In this document: piece by piece, positions 1 through 30,712 of the stretch
Layout: each line of letters starts with the position of its first letter
How positions within the stretch are numbered: the first letter of the stretch is position 1
Virus record (IMG/VR): IMGVR_UViG_3300026534_000006
Location: 1 to 30,712 of that record
Direction: 5' to 3' (one strand)
Length of the DNA: 30,712 nucleotides
From: a virus
Notes under the pieces: generated by a model
What the model was told of the DNA's origin: nothing
Databases searched by the model: none
The model's input: only the letters and a program-made list of their open reading frames with translations
Translations under genes and position numbers: made by a program

Positions 1-40
1 CGAAGCCTCACCCGCCGGGTGAACGCGCAACAGGCCTCCC

Positions 41-127
41 GCCCGGGTGGCGAAACTGGTAGACGCAAGGGACTTAAAATCCCTCGGTGGCAACACCGTG
101 CCGGTTCGATTCCGGCCCCGGGCACCA
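41..127 (+). tRNA. tRNA-Leu (UAA)
   Basis: The sequence folds as a class II tRNA of 87 nt. The acceptor stem is GCCCGGG (41-47) paired with CCCGGGC, followed by discriminator A124 and an encoded CCA (125-127). The anticodon arm is GGGA-CTTAAAA-TCCC with anticodon TAA, which reads UUA leucine codons. A long variable arm (CGGTG-GCAA-CACCG) and the T arm GCCGG-TTCGATT-CCGGC follow. The integrase gene lies 155 bases downstream in the same orientation, as usual when a temperate phage uses the 3' end of a tRNA as attB and restores it on integration. Confidence 0.97.
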
Positions 128-282: not shown

Positions 283-1317
283 ATGGCAACAATCACGAGG
301 TCAGGTCAAAAGTGGCGTGCGCGCGTCCGCATAAAGGGGATTGACCGTTCCAGGTCGTTCCACACAAAACGAGAGGCCCAGCGGTGGGCTGCCCAGATCG
401 AGGCGGACATCGAGTCTGGGGAGTCAGGGTCAACCCGGCCGTTCGGGGACGCTTTGGCCAGATACCGTGGTGAGGTGTCGCCGGATCGCGACGGTGGACG
501 ATGGGAGTACATGAGGATCGCGGCGTTGCTCGGTGAGCCTACATCGAGGAACCAATACCGGGATCCAGACCCATTAACGCTCATACCCATGTGCGACCTC
601 GGACCCGAGCATATCGCTCAGTGGAGGGACAGGCGGCTGAAACAGGTCAGTGCCGCCACCGTATTGCGTGAATGGAACCTGATATCGTCTGTCTGCACAC
701 ATGCCGTTCGGGAGTGGCGATGGCTCCCGAGGAACCCGATGAGCCAGGTAAAGCGGCCACAGGCACCTGAAGCTCGGACCCGTCGCGTGACTGATGAAGA
801 GATTGAGCGGGTCATTATCGCATCCGGTTATTCTCCATATGATCCGCCTGTCAGCACTGCGGAACGCGTTGCATGCGCCTTCCTGTTTGCCATAGAGACC
901 GCAATGAGAGCAGGCGAGATATGCGCTCTGCGCCACGAGGATGTGGATATCGATGCCAGGGTGGCGCATGTCAGAGCTATTGAGAGAGGAGCGCGGAAGA
1001 CAGGCAGACCGCGGTCAGTACCGCTCACAAAGCGGGCCGTAGAGATCGTTCGCCAGGTTGCCGCTGTCACCGGTGACGGCTACCTGTTTGGGCTGAAGCC
1101 GCGGAATCTGGACGCCACATGGAGGAACATCAGGGGGCGCGCCGGGATTGATGGACTGCACTTCCATGACACGAGAGCGGAGGCATTGACCAGGCTATCC
1201 AGAAAGCTGGATGTCATGCAATTGGCAAAGATCTCTGGCCACAGGGACCTCAGACAGCTGCTCAACACCTATTACCGAGAGGACCCTGCAGACTTCGTGT
1301 CTTTGCTGGATGACTGA
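283..1317 (+). CDS. int: Tyrosine recombinase (phage integrase)
   Basis: Site-specific recombinase of 344 aa that would catalyse integration and excision at the adjacent tRNA-Leu gene. The N-terminus (about residues 1-45, with the stretch SFHTKREAQRWAAQIEADI) resembles the arm-binding domain of phage integrases, and a core-binding SAM-like domain follows. The catalytic domain shows the expected landmarks: an arginine in ETAMRAGEICALRHEDV, HDTR (the H-x-x-R pair), GHRD, and the tyrosine nucleophile in LLNTYY near the C-terminus. Length fits the family. The ATG at 283 is the first good start after the tRNA; the Shine-Dalgarno is weak. Its 3' end overlaps a convergent minus-strand gene by 46 bases. 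Confidence 0.95.
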   Translation: MATITRSGQKWRARVRIKGIDRSRSFHTKREAQRWAAQIEADIESGESGSTRPFGDALARYRGEVSPDRDGGRWEYMRIAALLGEPTSRNQYRDPDPLTLIPMCDLGPEHIAQWRDRRLKQVSAATVLREWNLISSVCTHAVREWRWLPRNPMSQVKRPQAPEARTRRVTDEEIERVIIASGYSPYDPPVSTAERVACAFLFAIETAMRAGEICALRHEDVDIDARVAHVRAIERGARKTGRPRSVPLTKRAVEIVRQVAAVTGDGYLFGLKPRNLDATWRNIRGRAGIDGLHFHDTRAEALTRLSRKLDVMQLAKISGHRDLRQLLNTYYREDPADFVSLLDD

Positions 1318-14221: not shown

Positions 14222-14631
14222 GCCGCCTCACGCCACGGCAGGAGGCCTTCGCCATGGCCTTCGTTGAAACCGGAAACGCCTCTGAGGCATATCGGCAAGC
14301 ATACCCGCGTTCACGAAACTGGAAGCCGGAGACGGTTTACAGCAAGGCCAGCCACATGCTGGCCGATGACAAGGTATCGGCAAGGGTTGCTGAGCTCAAG
14401 GCAGAGCATAGAGAACGCCATCAGATCACCGTCGACACCCTGTCAGAGGAGGCCATGAAGGCGCTGAGGATGGCGGCCGAGCTGCAGAAACCAAACGACA
14501 TGATACGGGCGATCGATCAGCTGGCCAAGCTCCATGGTCTGCACGCGGCTGAGAAGCGAGAGCTGTCGATTCCTGGCGGCATCGGCATCGTCAGGCTGAA
14601 CATCAAACACATTGGTGAGGCGGGACAATGA
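14218..14631 (+). CDS. terS: Terminase small subunit
   Basis: A 137-aa DNA-recognition subunit of the packaging motor. The Terminase_2 pattern is clear: LTPRQEAFAMAFVETGNASEAYRQAYPRS, then WKPETVYSKASHMLADDKVSARVAELKAE, then a helical oligomerisation part (ITVDTLSEEAMKALRMAAELQKPNDMIRAIDQLAKLHGLH). The ATG at 14218 overlaps the endolysin stop, and the gene overlaps the large subunit by four bases. Confidence 0.95.
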   Translation: MSRLTPRQEAFAMAFVETGNASEAYRQAYPRSRNWKPETVYSKASHMLADDKVSARVAELKAEHRERHQITVDTLSEEAMKALRMAAELQKPNDMIRAIDQLAKLHGLHAAEKRELSIPGGIGIVRLNIKHIGEAGQ

Positions 14632-15863
14632 TCGCGGCTGAGGAGCGGGACATCGATATCGAGTTCCCTGGATGGTTCGCGCCTTTCTGGTCGCCGGCGC
14701 GCTACAAGATCGCCTACGGCGGTCGAGGAAGCGGCAAGTCAACGACATTTGCCAGGGCACTCATCTGCAGTGCTGCAGATCGGCCCATTCGCGTGCTCTG
14801 CGCCCGCGAGCTGCAAAACAGCATACAGGACTCTGTCCACCAACTCATTTCGGACCAGATTCATTCAATGGACCTCGATGCCTACTTCACCATCAAGGAA
14901 AAGGGCATCTACAGCCGCTGCGGGGCCGAGTTCCTGTTCAAGGGCGTGCGCGGCACCCGCGGCGACGCCAGCCAGCTCAAGAGCCTGGAGGGCGTCGATA
15001 TTTGCTGGATCGAGGAAGGGCAGACCATTTCCAAGGCCAGCCTGGAGACGCTTGTGCCGACCATCCGCAAGCCAGGGTCGGAGATCTGGATCAGCTATAA
15101 CCCGGATCAGGAAACCGACCCGGTTCATCAACTGGCCATGAACCCGCCGGAGGGGAGCATCGTTCGCAAGGTCAACTATTACGACAATCCATGGTTCCCG
15201 GCTGAACTGGAACTGGAACGCAAATGGATGCAGCGCACCGATCCGGACGCCTACGCCCACATCTGGGAGGGTGAATGCCGGCAGTACACCGATGCCCAGG
15301 TGCTGCGCGGAAAATGGACCGTAGAGCCGTTCGAGCCCGGCGAGGACTGGAACGGACCGTACTACGGCGCGGACTGGGGCTACGCCAAGGACCCGACCAC
15401 GCTGGTGCGCTGCTGGATTCATGATGCGCGGCTCTACATCGAGCACGATGCCTACCAGGTGGGCTGCGAGATCGATTCCACGCCCGATCTGTTCGACACC
15501 GTGCCGGAATCGAGAGAGCACACCATACGCGCCGACTCGGCACGACCGGAAACCATCAGCTACATGCGCCGCCAGGGGTTCAGGATCACAGGAGTCAAGA
15601 AAGGCAAGGGCAGCGTCGAGGACGGGGTGGCCCATCTGCGCGGGTATGAGCAGATCGTCATTCACCCGCGCTGCACCCACACCGCCGACGAGTGCCGCCT
15701 CTGGTCATGGAAGGTGGACAAGCTCTCCGGCGATATCCTTCCGCGCCTGGCCGACGGGCATGATCACACCATCGACGCCATCCGCTATGCGCTCGAGCCG
15801 GTCATTCGGCGCGGCACAGGACAGACCCACTACGCAGCAACACTGACGAGGACCATTGCATGA
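14628..15863 (+). CDS. terL: Terminase large subunit (PBSX/Terminase_3 type)
   Basis: A 411-aa packaging ATPase and nuclease. The Walker A motif is AYGGRGSGKST (about residues 29-39) and Walker B VDICWIEEG (about 123-131) with the catalytic glutamate. ISYNPD is the coupling motif. The C-terminal RNase-H-like nuclease domain begins with YYGADWGYAKDPTTL and includes IRADSARPETISYMR and a late DGHDHTIDAIRYAL, supplying the acidic residues for DNA cutting. Length is full for the family. The Mor-like regulator gene overlaps its stop by four bases. Confidence 0.97.
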   Translation: MIAAEERDIDIEFPGWFAPFWSPARYKIAYGGRGSGKSTTFARALICSAADRPIRVLCARELQNSIQDSVHQLISDQIHSMDLDAYFTIKEKGIYSRCGAEFLFKGVRGTRGDASQLKSLEGVDICWIEEGQTISKASLETLVPTIRKPGSEIWISYNPDQETDPVHQLAMNPPEGSIVRKVNYYDNPWFPAELELERKWMQRTDPDAYAHIWEGECRQYTDAQVLRGKWTVEPFEPGEDWNGPYYGADWGYAKDPTTLVRCWIHDARLYIEHDAYQVGCEIDSTPDLFDTVPESREHTIRADSARPETISYMRRQGFRITGVKKGKGSVEDGVAHLRGYEQIVIHPRCTHTADECRLWSWKVDKLSGDILPRLADGHDHTIDAIRYALEPVIRRGTGQTHYAATLTRTIA

Positions 15864-18719: not shown

Positions 18720-18846
18720 GTCACCGGCAGGTTTTCGCTCCATGAAAACCTGCACTTCCGCCATCCATGGCGGTCGCACATTCGGTGGCCGGGTTTTGCA
18801 GCCCGAAGTCGGAGCGCACCGGCGCTCATTCACGGCGCTTTTTTTG
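18720..18846 (+). ncRNA. C4-like antisense/attenuator RNA upstream of the KilA-N gene
   Basis: This region has the layout of phage C4-type immunity RNAs. A 5' copy of AAGTCGGAG (18806-18814) matches the sequence at the KilA-N ribosome-binding site (18973-18981). A segment further on, CTCCGAC (18895-18901) followed by CTGCAAACCCG (18907-18917), is complementary both to that 5' copy and to CGGGTTTTGCAG just upstream (about 18790-18801). An AGCGC/GCGCT stem followed by seven T's (18839-18845) would end a short RNA. Family membership (Rfam C4) is inferred from layout. Confidence 0.5.
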
Positions 18847-18988
18847 TGCCCGTGTTATGGCGGGGTGCGTGGGGAGCCGCGAGGCTCGCCGGATCTCCGA
18901 CCCGGTCTGCAAACCCGCGTACTCCGCCACCCTTTCGATTTGCAGCGGAAGCGTGGCGGTTCTCGAACATCAAAGTCGGAGAACTGCT

Positions 18989-19798
18989 ATGAATCAGTCC
19001 ATTTCTGTCCTCAACACATACATCCGTATCCACGACGGCCTCTACTCCCTAAACGACCTGCACCGTGCCGCCGGTGGGGAGAAACGCCATCAGCCGGCCA
19101 ATTGGCTGCGCAACGACCAGGCCCGCGAACTCATCGAGGAGATCGAGCAGTCCTCAGATCTGAGGAACGGGGCCGTCAAGCGCGTGCAAGGCGGCGATCC
19201 GCAACTCCAAGGCACCTACGCCTGCAAAGAGCTCGTCTACGCCTACGCCATGTGGATCTCTGCCCGGTTCCACCTGGCGGTGATCCGCGCCTTCGACGCC
19301 CTGGTCAGCGGCCAGGCGCAGGCATTGCCCGAGCCGCCCACCATCACCAGAACGCAGGCCGGGGAGCTCTCCGCCCTCATCGCCGAACGCGCCGAAGCGG
19401 ACGGGTGCAGCCGCGCCTACTGCTGGAGCCGCTTCAACCGGCACTTCCGCATCGCACGCTACCGTGACCTGCCCGCCGAGCGCTTCGACGAGGCCGTCGA
19501 GTACATCAAGGCCATGCCGGGTGAGCGCAAACGGATGCCAGGGCCAGCGGCGGGTGGGCGCATGACCGTGCTCATGACCATCGAGAACGACCGGATCACT
19601 GGCATGCAGCCCATTGGAGAGCATGAAGTCATCATCGACCCGGCGCGGCTGCCCGACAACATCCAGGCCATATTGCCAGGATGGCGCCTGGTGCCCGTCG
19701 ACGAACTCGACACCCTCACCCGCGCGGCCCTGTCCGCCGCCGAACTGGCCGATGGCATGCGCGAGTATGCGGTAGAGCTCAGGCAATGGGTGATCTGA
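18989..19798 (+). CDS. KilA-N domain antirepressor-like protein
   Basis: A 269-aa DNA-binding protein. Residues 1-105 are a KilA-N domain: VLNTYIRIHDGLYSLNDLHRAAGGEKRHQPANWLRNDQARELIEEI, and YACKELVYAYAMWISARFHLAVIRAFDAL. Residues about 115-175 (QAGELSALIAERAEADGCSRAYCWSRFNRHFRIARYRDLPAERFDEAVEYI) resemble an ORF6C-type C-terminal domain, as found in phage antirepressors. The remainder is specific to this protein. The start follows GGAG at 18978-18981, which is itself complementary to an upstream RNA segment. It lies within the head gene cluster, and is expected to counter repression during induction. Confidence 0.85.
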   Translation: MNQSISVLNTYIRIHDGLYSLNDLHRAAGGEKRHQPANWLRNDQARELIEEIEQSSDLRNGAVKRVQGGDPQLQGTYACKELVYAYAMWISARFHLAVIRAFDALVSGQAQALPEPPTITRTQAGELSALIAERAEADGCSRAYCWSRFNRHFRIARYRDLPAERFDEAVEYIKAMPGERKRMPGPAAGGRMTVLMTIENDRITGMQPIGEHEVIIDPARLPDNIQAILPGWRLVPVDELDTLTRAALSAAELADGMREYAVELRQWVI

Positions 19799-22912: not shown

Positions 22913-23896
22913 ATGCCCATGGTAGACCCGTTCACCCCGGACGCGTTCACGCTGCAAAGCCTGACTGCGGCCATCAACAACCTGCCGTACCAGCCGGGCC
23001 GAATCGGACAACTCGGTCTGTTCAATGAAACCGGCGTGGCCACACGCAATATCAGCATCGAGTCCCGCGATGGTCAGCTGTTGCTGATGCCGGTCAAGCC
23101 GGTTGGCGCTGACGGCACTCCGATCACCGGTAACGACCGCAAAGCGCATCCGTTCGTCATTCCGCACATCCCGGCACGCGCCACCATCACGGCAGACGAA
23201 GTGCAGGGCGTTCGGGTGTTCGGTTCCGAAAACCAGGCAGAAACGGTTCAGATGAAGGTCAACGAGCGCCTGGCCACCATGCGCAATTCCCTGGAATACA
23301 CCGTGGAGTCGCATCGTGTGTCCGCCATCAAGGGACAGGCGATCGACGCCAATGGTGGCACCATCGATCTGTTCGCCGAGTTCGGCGTCACGCAGCAGGT
23401 GGTGACCATGGGCCTGAGCACCACCGGCAACAGCGCCATCCGCCAAAAGATGTTCAATGTCAAGCAGGCCATTCGAGGCGCGCTGGGCGGCACCCCGTTC
23501 GGCGGCATTCGCGTGTTCTGTGGTGACAACTTCTGGGCTGCCCTGCTCGAGGACAAGGACACCAAGGCGACCTACCTGAACCAGGCGCAGGCCGCCGAGC
23601 TGCGCGGCGATCCAAGCGACAGCTTCGCGGCGTTTGGGGCTATCTGGGAGCACTACGAGGGCACCACCGACGCCAACTTCGGCGCGGATGCCTATGCCGT
23701 ACCCGTTGGCGTCCCTGACCTGTTCCTGACGCGCTTCGCGCCCGCCAACTACAACGAGACGGTCAATACCATCGGACTGCCGTACTACGCCAAGGCTGAG
23801 CCGATGAAGTTCAACAAGGGCTTCGAGCTGGAAGGTCAGAGCAACCCGTTCAACATCTGCACCCGACCGGCATCCGTGATCCGCCTGGTCATCTGA
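22913..23896 (+). CDS. Major capsid protein (lambda gpE-like)
   Basis: A 327-aa major capsid protein of the E family (PF03864-like). Landmarks: DPFTPDAFTLQSLTAAINNLPYQPGRIGQLGLFNETGVATRNISIES at the N-terminus, FVIPHIPARATITADEVQGVRVFG, and later IRVFCGDNFWAALLEDKDTKATYLNQAQAAELRGDP. The C-terminus has the RFAPANYNETVNTIGLPYYAKAEPMKFNKGFELEGQSNPFNICTRPASVIRLVI pattern. A strong Shine-Dalgarno (AAGGAGG) precedes the ATG at 22913, fitting high expression. Confidence 0.96.
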   Translation: MPMVDPFTPDAFTLQSLTAAINNLPYQPGRIGQLGLFNETGVATRNISIESRDGQLLLMPVKPVGADGTPITGNDRKAHPFVIPHIPARATITADEVQGVRVFGSENQAETVQMKVNERLATMRNSLEYTVESHRVSAIKGQAIDANGGTIDLFAEFGVTQQVVTMGLSTTGNSAIRQKMFNVKQAIRGALGGTPFGGIRVFCGDNFWAALLEDKDTKATYLNQAQAAELRGDPSDSFAAFGAIWEHYEGTTDANFGADAYAVPVGVPDLFLTRFAPANYNETVNTIGLPYYAKAEPMKFNKGFELEGQSNPFNICTRPASVIRLVI

Positions 23897-25971: not shown

Positions 25972-26333
25972 CCCGCCTATCGATCATTGCCGCGCTAGCG
26001 ATCGTCGTTGCAGGTTGCGACATCAATGCGCAATCGCCCAGCCCGCACCGGATTTACTGGGTCAATGGCGACCCTGGCAATGTGGCTGGGTATCGCGTCT
26101 ATTGCGGCGACACCTCACGCAGCTATACCCAGAACTGGAACATCGGTGGCGAGGAAAACACCGAGATCGTCATCAGTACGATGGGCCTCGCGGATGGAGT
26201 CCACTACTGCGCGGTGACCGCCTACAACTTCGTCGGTGAGTCCGATTACAGCAACGAGGTGTCGTTTGCCACCATGGGTGGAGACCTGCAGCAGCAGAAA
26301 CCGCTGCCACCGAGCAATGTGAGGGCCGAATAA
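25968..26333 (+). CDS. Lipoprotein with fibronectin type III-like domain
   Basis: A 121-aa lipoprotein. The signal peptide (residues 1-16) ends at lipobox VVAGC (Cys17), and Asp18 at +2 predicts retention in the inner membrane under the enterobacterial Lol rule. Residues about 27-105 have the FN3 pattern: IYWVNGDPGNVAGYRVYCGDTSRSYTQ, TEIVISTMGLADGVHYCAVTAYNFVGESDYSNEVSFAT, where the G-Y-x-V-Y and Y-C-A-V-T-A-Y-N elements match strands of the fold. The second gene after the holin, it may be a lysis accessory, or may belong with the following beta-propeller. Confidence 0.8.
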   Translation: MTRLSIIAALAIVVAGCDINAQSPSPHRIYWVNGDPGNVAGYRVYCGDTSRSYTQNWNIGGEENTEIVISTMGLADGVHYCAVTAYNFVGESDYSNEVSFATMGGDLQQQKPLPPSNVRAE

Positions 26334-27613
26334 TGAGCGAGACCATCAAGGCATTCGTGGCAGATTTCGCCGCCAATGAGCGCGCCAAGCGGGCCATGGG
26401 CTACAGCGACACCAGCCAGCGCCTGCAGCGCATACTCGCGGATTCACAGGTTGACGACTCGGTCATCTCCGTCAAATACACCCGGCAATCCGCCCAGATC
26501 ACCGAGAGCGATATTGGCGTGAAGGTCAGTTCGTACCGTGATGGACTGGTGAATCGGCCGCGAGCGCTGCGCCAGGTCGGGAACGAGATATGGGTAGGAA
26601 ATTACTCAACGGCGATCGCACGATTCGACGAGAACTGGTCATTCCTCGGCTATTGGGGGCGCTACGCGAACCCAAACAACACGCCGGACGGGCAAGCAGG
26701 TCTTGGTGACTTCGTTGTGGATCCAGCCAACGACCTGGTCGTCATTGCATGCCAGTCGTACCACCGGGTGCGGGCATTCAGCATGACCACCATGCAGCCA
26801 CTGTGGGACTTCGGCGACGGTATCGCCGGAAATTATGGCCAGGGGCGTCTGTACAACCCCTATTCGGTCGAGCTTTTGCCGAACGGCAATATCCTGGTCG
26901 CATCCTATAACGGCCGCGGCGTTGTTGGCGGCACAACAGGGTCAAATGACGGCTTCCTTGCGGAGATCGATGCCGCAACTGGCAATGCGGTTGCGTGCAT
27001 CAAGAAATCGAACACGGTCAAGGCACCATGGGACGGCGATGTCAGAAACCCGGTTCGTGTTCGCATGCTCGGCGGCAAGGCCTATGTCAGCAATTACGCG
27101 GCCGATGTCGTCAGCGTTTATGACCCGGCAACATGGAATCTCGAGACGACTTATTCCAAGCCCGCAGGATTTGATATCCAGAGCGTTGGCCCGCGTGGCC
27201 TGTGCCTGAACGACGCCGGGGACCAGGTGATCGTCGTTGCGCGCGAACCCAGCATCATCGTTGCCATTGGTGTCGCTGATCATGATTACAAATGGCATGC
27301 AGGAGAACAGGCGTTCGATGACCGGTCTTCAGCACGAAACCTGGCTGGCGAGATGCAGGGGCCCTGGGATGTGCTTCCGCTCGGAAACGGCCTGTACGCA
27401 GTTGCAGACTACGGCAACAACAGGGTCACCGTATTGCCTGAATTCAACTATGCCCCCGTCCAGTACCAGGGAGCTCTTCCTGCAGGATACCGCTTGATCG
27501 ATGAAGGGCTGCCTCAAGGCTTTGATCCGTCAACGATGACGCGTCTGGTTCGGCTCAGTGAGATCGACGACGCCGCTGACCTCTATCTGCCGGCGGAGAG
27601 GATCCCGCAATGA
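26333..27613 (+). CDS. NHL-type beta-propeller protein
   Basis: A 426-aa protein without signal peptide. After a 90-residue N-terminal part come repeats typical of NHL/YncE-like propellers: RPRALRQVGNEIWVGNYST-IARFDENW, DFVVDPANDLVVIACQSYHRVRAF, LYNPYSVELLPNGNILVASYNGRG, NPVRVRMLGGKAYVSNYAADVVSVYDPATW, GPRGLCLNDAGDQVIVVAREPS and GPWDVLPLGNGLYAVADYGNNRVTVLPEF. About five or six blades are visible. In phages such proteins may be virion-bound adhesins or cargo; nothing shows which. It sits between the lysis cassette and the tail terminator gene, overlapping the lipoprotein stop. Confidence 0.85.
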   Translation: MSETIKAFVADFAANERAKRAMGYSDTSQRLQRILADSQVDDSVISVKYTRQSAQITESDIGVKVSSYRDGLVNRPRALRQVGNEIWVGNYSTAIARFDENWSFLGYWGRYANPNNTPDGQAGLGDFVVDPANDLVVIACQSYHRVRAFSMTTMQPLWDFGDGIAGNYGQGRLYNPYSVELLPNGNILVASYNGRGVVGGTTGSNDGFLAEIDAATGNAVACIKKSNTVKAPWDGDVRNPVRVRMLGGKAYVSNYAADVVSVYDPATWNLETTYSKPAGFDIQSVGPRGLCLNDAGDQVIVVAREPSIIVAIGVADHDYKWHAGEQAFDDRSSARNLAGEMQGPWDVLPLGNGLYAVADYGNNRVTVLPEFNYAPVQYQGALPAGYRLIDEGLPQGFDPSTMTRLVRLSEIDDAADLYLPAERIPQ

Positions 27614-29525: not shown

Positions 29526-29708
29526 CCGGCCGGTGACAGAAGACACAACCCGGTCAGCGATAACGGCAAGGATCAAGATTGCCACCGCGGACAGAGGAGT
29601 GGCAATCAACCAGGTCGGCAAGTGACCGGAAAGCCACAGAAGGAATGCGGCCACCAGGATCAGGAAGAAAAACAGAGCACCGAAAAACGAACCAACAACG
29701 CCCATCAT
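29520..29708 (-). CDS. Two-span small membrane protein on the opposite strand
   Basis: A 62-aa protein from ATG at 29708 (a second ATG follows directly). Two hydrophobic segments are visible: GSFFGALFFFLILVAAFLLWL and LIATPLSAVAILILAVIADRV, joined by SGHLPTW. It fills the only gap (29526-29706) between the tail chaperone and tape measure genes, and no plus-strand frame is plausible there. Small membrane proteins against the late operon's direction are often morons, for example superinfection exclusion. Start and stop each overlap a late gene by a few bases. Confidence 0.6.
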   Translation of the reverse strand: MMGVVGSFFGALFFFLILVAAFLLWLSGHLPTWLIATPLSAVAILILAVIADRVVSSVTGRS

Positions 29709-30237
29709 GCCAAGCCCATCGCTGAAAATCAGAATCACCGTCGACAAGGATAGGGCAGAGCGCGCGCTGTCGCAAATCCGTGGGTCAACGGACAGACTGA
29801 GCGAAGGACTGCGCCGGATTGGGCATTATGGCGCGGCAGCATTCGCCGGATGGAAGATCACCGGCCTGGTGCAGGATTTGGCCAGGATGTCGCAAGGCGT
29901 CACGCTGGTCGAAGCAAGGATGCGCCTGGTCACCAACAGCATCGACGAGTTCAACGCTGCGCAGCGCGAGGCGCGCCGGATTGCCAGAGAGACGGGGCAG
30001 GAATACGCAGAGATCGCTCAGCTCTATGCCCGGACCTCTCTTGCCCTTGGCGATGTCGCCAACAAGCGGTTCATCCCCACGGGTGTGGGGAACGCGGCAA
30101 AATGCGATTGGCAAATTGGCAAATTGGCGGTTCATCCCCACGGGTGTGGGGAACGCGGAAGGATCACCAAGGAAATGAAACAACAATTCGGTTCATCCCC
30201 ACGGGTGTGGGGAACGCCACCCACACCCACACCCTAG
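29707..30237 (+). pseudogene. Tail tape measure protein, 5' part only, fused to CRISPR array
   Basis: Only residues 1-120 (29707-30066) are phage-derived. They show the start of a siphophage tape measure: SLKIRITVDKDRAERALSQIRGSTDRLSEGLRRIGHYGAAAFAGW, then SQGVTLVEARMRLVTNSIDEFNAAQREARRIARETGQEYAEIAQLYARTSLALGDVANK. A normal member has many hundreds of residues. At 30067 the frame enters a CRISPR repeat (R-F-I-P-T-G-V-G-N), and a stop follows in a spacer at 30235-30237. The gene is therefore broken or joined artificially. Confidence 0.85.
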
Positions 30238-30712
30238 CCGCAGATTGGCCGGTTCATCCCCACGGGTGTGGGGAACGCCCTGACCAGCCGCGATCTTGCC
30301 CGCCCTGTACCGGTTCATCCCCACGGGTGTGGGGAACGCACTTCAATTCCGTATTCGGCGAAAAGGGATTACGGTTCATCCCCACGGGTGTGGGGAACGC
30401 CTACATAACCGCACTATATCGTCGCCCGTCAGCGGTTCATCCCCACGGGTGTGGGGAACGCCACCGATACTGAGGGCGTTGTAGCGCCCGACACGGTTCA
30501 TCCCCACGGGTGTGGGGAACGCTTGCCGGGATTGTTATTTCGAATGCCTCTGGGCGGTTCATCCCCACGGGTGTGGGGAACGCGCCGATTTCGTCTGCCA
30601 GCGCCCGCCTTTATCCGGTTCATCCCCACGGGTGTGGGGAACGCTATAGGTCGATCAACGAGACTGGAAAAACTCCCGGTTCATCCCCACGGGTGTGGGG
30701 AACGCCGGATCA
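30067..30712 (-). CRISPR. Type I-E CRISPR array, 11 repeats, continues past the window
   Basis: Eleven identical 29-bp repeats start at 30067, 30128, 30189, 30250, 30311, 30372, 30433, 30494, 30555, 30616 and 30677, each 61 bases apart, with ten complete 32-bp spacers. On the minus strand the repeat begins GCGTTCCCCAC and ends GGGATGAACCG with a 7-bp stem (TCCCCAC/GTGGGGA), the I-E form, so crRNAs run right to left and the leader lies beyond 30712. An eleventh spacer is cut at 30706-30712. No degenerate terminal repeat is seen at the left end. No cas gene is in the window. None of the spacers matched the prophage sequence by eye. Confidence 0.98.

Follow-up and report, generated by a model that had tools for sequence, protein, structure and literature searches.

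The closest described counterparts of the CRISPR array analysed here are the type I-E arrays of Methylococcales such as Methylobacter sp. KS41 and Methylotuvimicrobium buryatense. These arrays are built from the same 29-bp repeat and from spacers of the same length, 32 nt, and no spacer is common to them and the array described below. The PAMs reported for type I-E systems are AAG, AWG, AG and similar motifs (PMC8482600). In the assembly of short reads, CRISPR repeats have also been named as a source of chimeric contigs (PMC6617893).

The window, that is the whole stretch of DNA under analysis, is a complete IMG/VR record of 30,712 bases. It holds the left portion of a temperate siphophage, followed by a CRISPR array. 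The phage part carries a tRNA-Leu(TAA), an integrase, RecE/RecT-like genes, a CI-like repressor and a replication initiator; after these come the structural genes for terminase, portal, head, connector and tail tube, and finally the tape-measure gene, which starts at 29707. The features needed for the argument are the following.

41..127, + strand: tRNA-Leu (TAA), probable attL (ARAGORN, Rfam)
283..1317, + strand: tyrosine integrase of a temperate phage (PHROG 1, E 6.6e-56; PF00589)
14628..15863, + strand: terminase large subunit (PHROG 3717, E 1.5e-61)
22913..23896, + strand: major head protein (PHROG 29, E 2.2e-50)
29707..30066, + strand: 5' part of the tape-measure gene, ending at the join (open frame; PHROG 339, E 8e-13)
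30035..30066, - strand: probable type I-E spacer / phage protospacer (similarity to a related phage, L029, ends at 30067; with C30067, 33 nt are common)
30067..30712, crRNA strand -: type I-E CRISPR array with 11 repeats, 10 complete spacers and 7 nt of an eleventh (repeat search; type and orientation from the genome locus L012)

Two other IMG/VR records, 3300026534_000116 (L029) and 3300026534_000004 (L041), represent temperate siphophages of the same kind. The second is a related prophage record whose terminase protein is 76% identical to that of the window phage. In both of them the tape-measure gene runs on, whereas in the window it stops at the array. No match to the tape-measure region was obtained among GenBank phages, at the DNA or at the protein level. 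The tRNA-Leu of the window is up to 95% identical to the tRNA-Leu of many Methylococcales genomes, and the host of the phage was probably a methanotroph-like gammaproteobacterium.

The repeat, CGGTTCATCCCCACGGGTGTGGGGAACGC, occurs in 11 perfect 29-bp copies that start from 30067 to 30677 with a period of 61. The ten complete spacers are each 32 nt long, and the array reaches the end of the record. These dimensions are those of type I-E arrays, which have about 29 bp per repeat and about 32 bp per spacer. Within the window no cas genes and no leader were found, the contig ending inside the array. In L012, an identical repeat adjoins a cas8e-cas11e-cas7e-cas5e-cas6e-cas1e-cas2e operon, and the window array was therefore typed by analogy as I-E with its crRNA on the minus strand; by the same comparison, the leader side would lie beyond the right end. 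The same repeat was found in 27 genome loci, mostly from Methylococcales, and in 14 of the 311 genomes of this order. Apart from the window, none of the virus contigs carried it. One of the window spacers, at 30096-30127, is a short tandem repeat of CCAATTTG units, which is unusual for a phage-derived spacer.

The initial annotation described an abrupt passage from phage to array, and this description was borne out. The tape-measure frame is open from 29707 to 30066 and matches a tape-measure profile (PHROG 339), the first repeat at 30067 is a perfect 29-bp copy, and at 30006-30034, where a preceding repeat would be expected, 10 of the 29 bases match, which is near chance. The 32 bases at 30035-30066 do have the length of a spacer, but so would any other 32 bases, and the length by itself is no proof. 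The perfection of the first repeat was also tried, and rejected, as a sign of a truncated array. In many genome loci carrying this repeat, some of which are contig edges, the last repeat seen is perfect as well, so that a perfect first repeat is weak evidence of a cut array.

A more direct indication is provided by L029. An uninterrupted tape-measure gene, a search for which had been proposed in the initial annotation, was found in this contig: a frame of 1,073 aa that continues past the join point, is truncated nowhere but at the left end of the contig and is followed by further downstream genes. Over the window positions 29830-30067 the two sequences are identical at 230 of 238 bases (97% DNA identity), and 30067, the first base of the first repeat, is exactly where the similarity ends. 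The bases that follow are AGGAACGG in L029 and GGTTCATC in the array. The L029 protospacer differs from 30035-30066 at two positions (30/32 identical). Given a repeat-spacer unit of 61 bases, a random break would fall on this repeat edge with a chance of about 1/61 to 2/61 (about 2-3%). This low chance, together with the end of similarity at the repeat edge, indicates that 30035-30066, which reads CTTGTTGGCGACATCGCC... on the crRNA strand, is probably a spacer with a protospacer in this phage.

One prediction attached to the spacer reading failed. An intact tape-measure gene was expected to carry CTT directly after 30066, corresponding to an AAG PAM, but the codon that follows the protospacer is CAG in L029, in L063 and in the more distant L041. 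The PAM would accordingly be CTG; a CAA codon would give TTG. CTG is not among the A-containing I-E PAMs of PMC8482600, although the comparison uses the relatives' flank and that of the window phage itself may differ. Judged on this flank, the protospacer lacks the AAG or AWG of a functional I-E target. Only the last G of the PAM fits, and the same G, which adjoins the spacer, is the last base of the repeat. This outcome slightly weakens both the spacer reading and the claim of active interference; it does not refute the former. The PAM of the repeat family could not be set from other targets. A spacer of KS41 has one protospacer, located in its own genome with the flank CTGG, but no PAM can be derived from one match of this kind. 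The window array, two Methylobacter arrays and one Acidithiobacillus array gave weak chance-level matches or none against GenBank phages, and these four arrays thus leave the PAM unset. Matches of the arrays to plasmids were rejected as targets: they looked like other arrays, as identity was low and the matches extended along the entire query.

Wider searches returned little beyond the junction. An exact search of IMG/VR with the 32-nt sequence and two window spacers found nothing, and a degenerate-pattern search of the same catalogue recovered only the L029 contig. Apart from the junction itself, none of 575 spacers from 27 loci matched any of 171 virus sequences with up to 7 mismatches. None of the ten other window spacers matches the window phage or its relatives. 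Among the genomes and virus contigs searched, none contained a copy of the array in which a repeat precedes the putative spacer 30035-30066.

Two explanations had been put forward for the join, a short-overlap assembly and a real deletion. Both are possible, and the evidence leans to the former: we consider it likely that the contig is an assembly chimera joined through the overlap between spacer and protospacer. One sample would have contained two DNA molecules, a temperate siphophage and a host type I-E array, and the array spacer 30035-30066 would be identical or nearly so to the phage tape-measure gene. Around this spacer the array would read repeat-CTTGTTGGCGACATCGCCAAGGGCAAGAGAGG-repeat, and a copy with both repeats would read GAACGC-CCTCTCTTGCCCTTGGCGATGTCGCCAACAAG-CGGTTC. 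A de Bruijn assembler working at its smallest k could then have passed from the phage to the array via the shared 33-nt word, and the join could have persisted if, at that point, the true continuation of the phage and the repeat before the spacer in the array had been absent or collapsed. For this account we infer a repeat before the spacer in the array, a metaSPAdes assembly at k=33-127 and an origin of the spacer in this phage lineage. A comparable situation is found in the chimeras of PMC6617893, in which array sequence likewise takes part; there the shared word is the repeat, here it would be the spacer.

The overlap has the length that such a join would need. When an intact phage and an intact array were modelled, their longest common word was 33 nt, C30067 included, and in a de Bruijn graph built from both modelled parents the join was a valid path at k=21 and k=33 but at none of the values tested from 55 to 127. 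The shared word is thus long enough for an assembler whose smallest k is 33, which presumably was the case here. A soil metagenome study based on the JGI workflow used metaSPAdes with -k 33,55,77,99,127 (PMC10434106), and the 33-nt overlap equals the smallest k of that series, which is why the evidence leans to assembly. Counted from the first base of the record, the 3' end of the window tRNA-Leu lies at exactly 127 nt, and in 3300026534_000004 the tRNA edge is at base 126. The lysogen and the empty chromosome should part at this edge, so that both values fit contigs starting at a 127-mer branch; these two record ends suggest a k=127 step in the assembly. In the window (1-127) and in L215 (1-126), a related prophage record, the tRNA/phage edge is thus reached 126-127 nt after the record start. 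The absence of the repeat from other virus contigs was also counted in favor of a chimera. Against it, a join arising at k=33 would have had to persist through the steps with larger k. This could plausibly have happened if the continuation of the phage strain had been collapsed into that of an L029-like strain and the repeat before the spacer had dropped out of the array. The CTG PAM in the closest relatives, the lack of a phage match for the ten other spacers and the failure to find an array copy with a repeat before the spacer were counted against a chimera formed through the spacer overlap.

Part of this counter-evidence fits a chimera of another kind, produced by library ligation, amplification or mis-scaffolding, in which no spacer is involved and the break landed on the repeat edge by chance. 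It would agree with a relatives' PAM position that reads CTG instead of AAG, with the single base (C30067) shared beyond the claimed spacer and with the fact that no other spacer targets the phage. It requires the coincidence of about 1/61 to 2/61 calculated above, and we hold it to be unlikely. The same 2-3% chance, and a CTG PAM that may not support interference, make it an overstatement that both of the initially proposed explanations imply CRISPR targeting of this phage.

Biological explanations of the join appear less probable again. In the deletion scenario, a prophage in the chromosome of the array would have been cleaved by the CRISPR system of the same cell, and repair or recombination via the 32-bp spacer/protospacer match would have removed the rest of the prophage. 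The left end of the window does resemble an integrated prophage (tRNA-Leu and integrase), both the tRNA and the repeat are found in Methylococcales, and self-targeting in Pectobacterium yields deletions, some of them with microhomology (PMC3630108). In the portions of self-targeting accounts at hand, however, the island or prophage region of the survivors was gone or remodelled, or their array or cas genes carried mutations, and recombination between spacer and protospacer is not described there; a literature phrase search found no published example of it either. CTG is, moreover, absent from the I-E PAMs of PMC8482600, and a simpler artefact gives an identical sequence. A real CRISPR-driven deletion, for which there is no positive evidence and whose facts the artefact covers with less, is accordingly judged quite improbable. 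In I-E adaptation, the second attack of Cas1-Cas2 occurs at the spacer side of the repeat. The join lies at this very site, as would be expected if Cas1-Cas2 had inserted long phage DNA at the repeat edge. Such an insertion, or an array borne by the phage, would nevertheless destroy the phage tape-measure gene, no related virus contig has the repeat, and in L029 the tape-measure gene is uninterrupted and followed by its downstream genes. We regard this last possibility as highly improbable.

The junction is therefore most likely an ordinary artefact rather than a new biological feature. If so, spacer-protospacer overlaps of 32-33 nt suffice for an assembly at k=33 to merge phage contigs with host contigs, and such fusions can bring host CRISPR arrays into virus catalogues, where they falsely suggest phage-encoded arrays or integration sites. 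Even then, the fusion itself is still a valid clue to a host-phage pair. This link is the usable part of the finding, and it hints that the owner of the array was once immunised against this phage. A real join would represent a scar left in nature by CRISPR self-targeting and mended via the very spacer that guided it, a situation of which we found no published example. The likely k=127 footprint before the tRNA edge could help to recognise attL ends in virus catalogues.

Several minor observations were made in the course of this analysis. One KS41 spacer (L014 3616; L204) is self-targeting: a different contig of the KS41 genome carries a perfect match (flank GACTGG), and a site in another Methylococcales genome matches with 4 mismatches. 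Two spacers of one KS41 array (L014 7643 and 4226) differ at 4 of 32 bases, which suggests repeated sampling of a diverging target. In the window, a 426-aa protein encoded at 26333-27613 (+), between the connector and tail-tube genes, has a weak NHL-repeat match and no PHROG match. A C4 antisense RNA (Rfam RF01695, 63.9 bits) is located at 18853-18934 (+), close to where a KilA-N/ORF6C antirepressor-like gene (18767-19798) begins; this gene lies between the portal and head genes. Together they form a P1/P7-like immunity module within the structural block.
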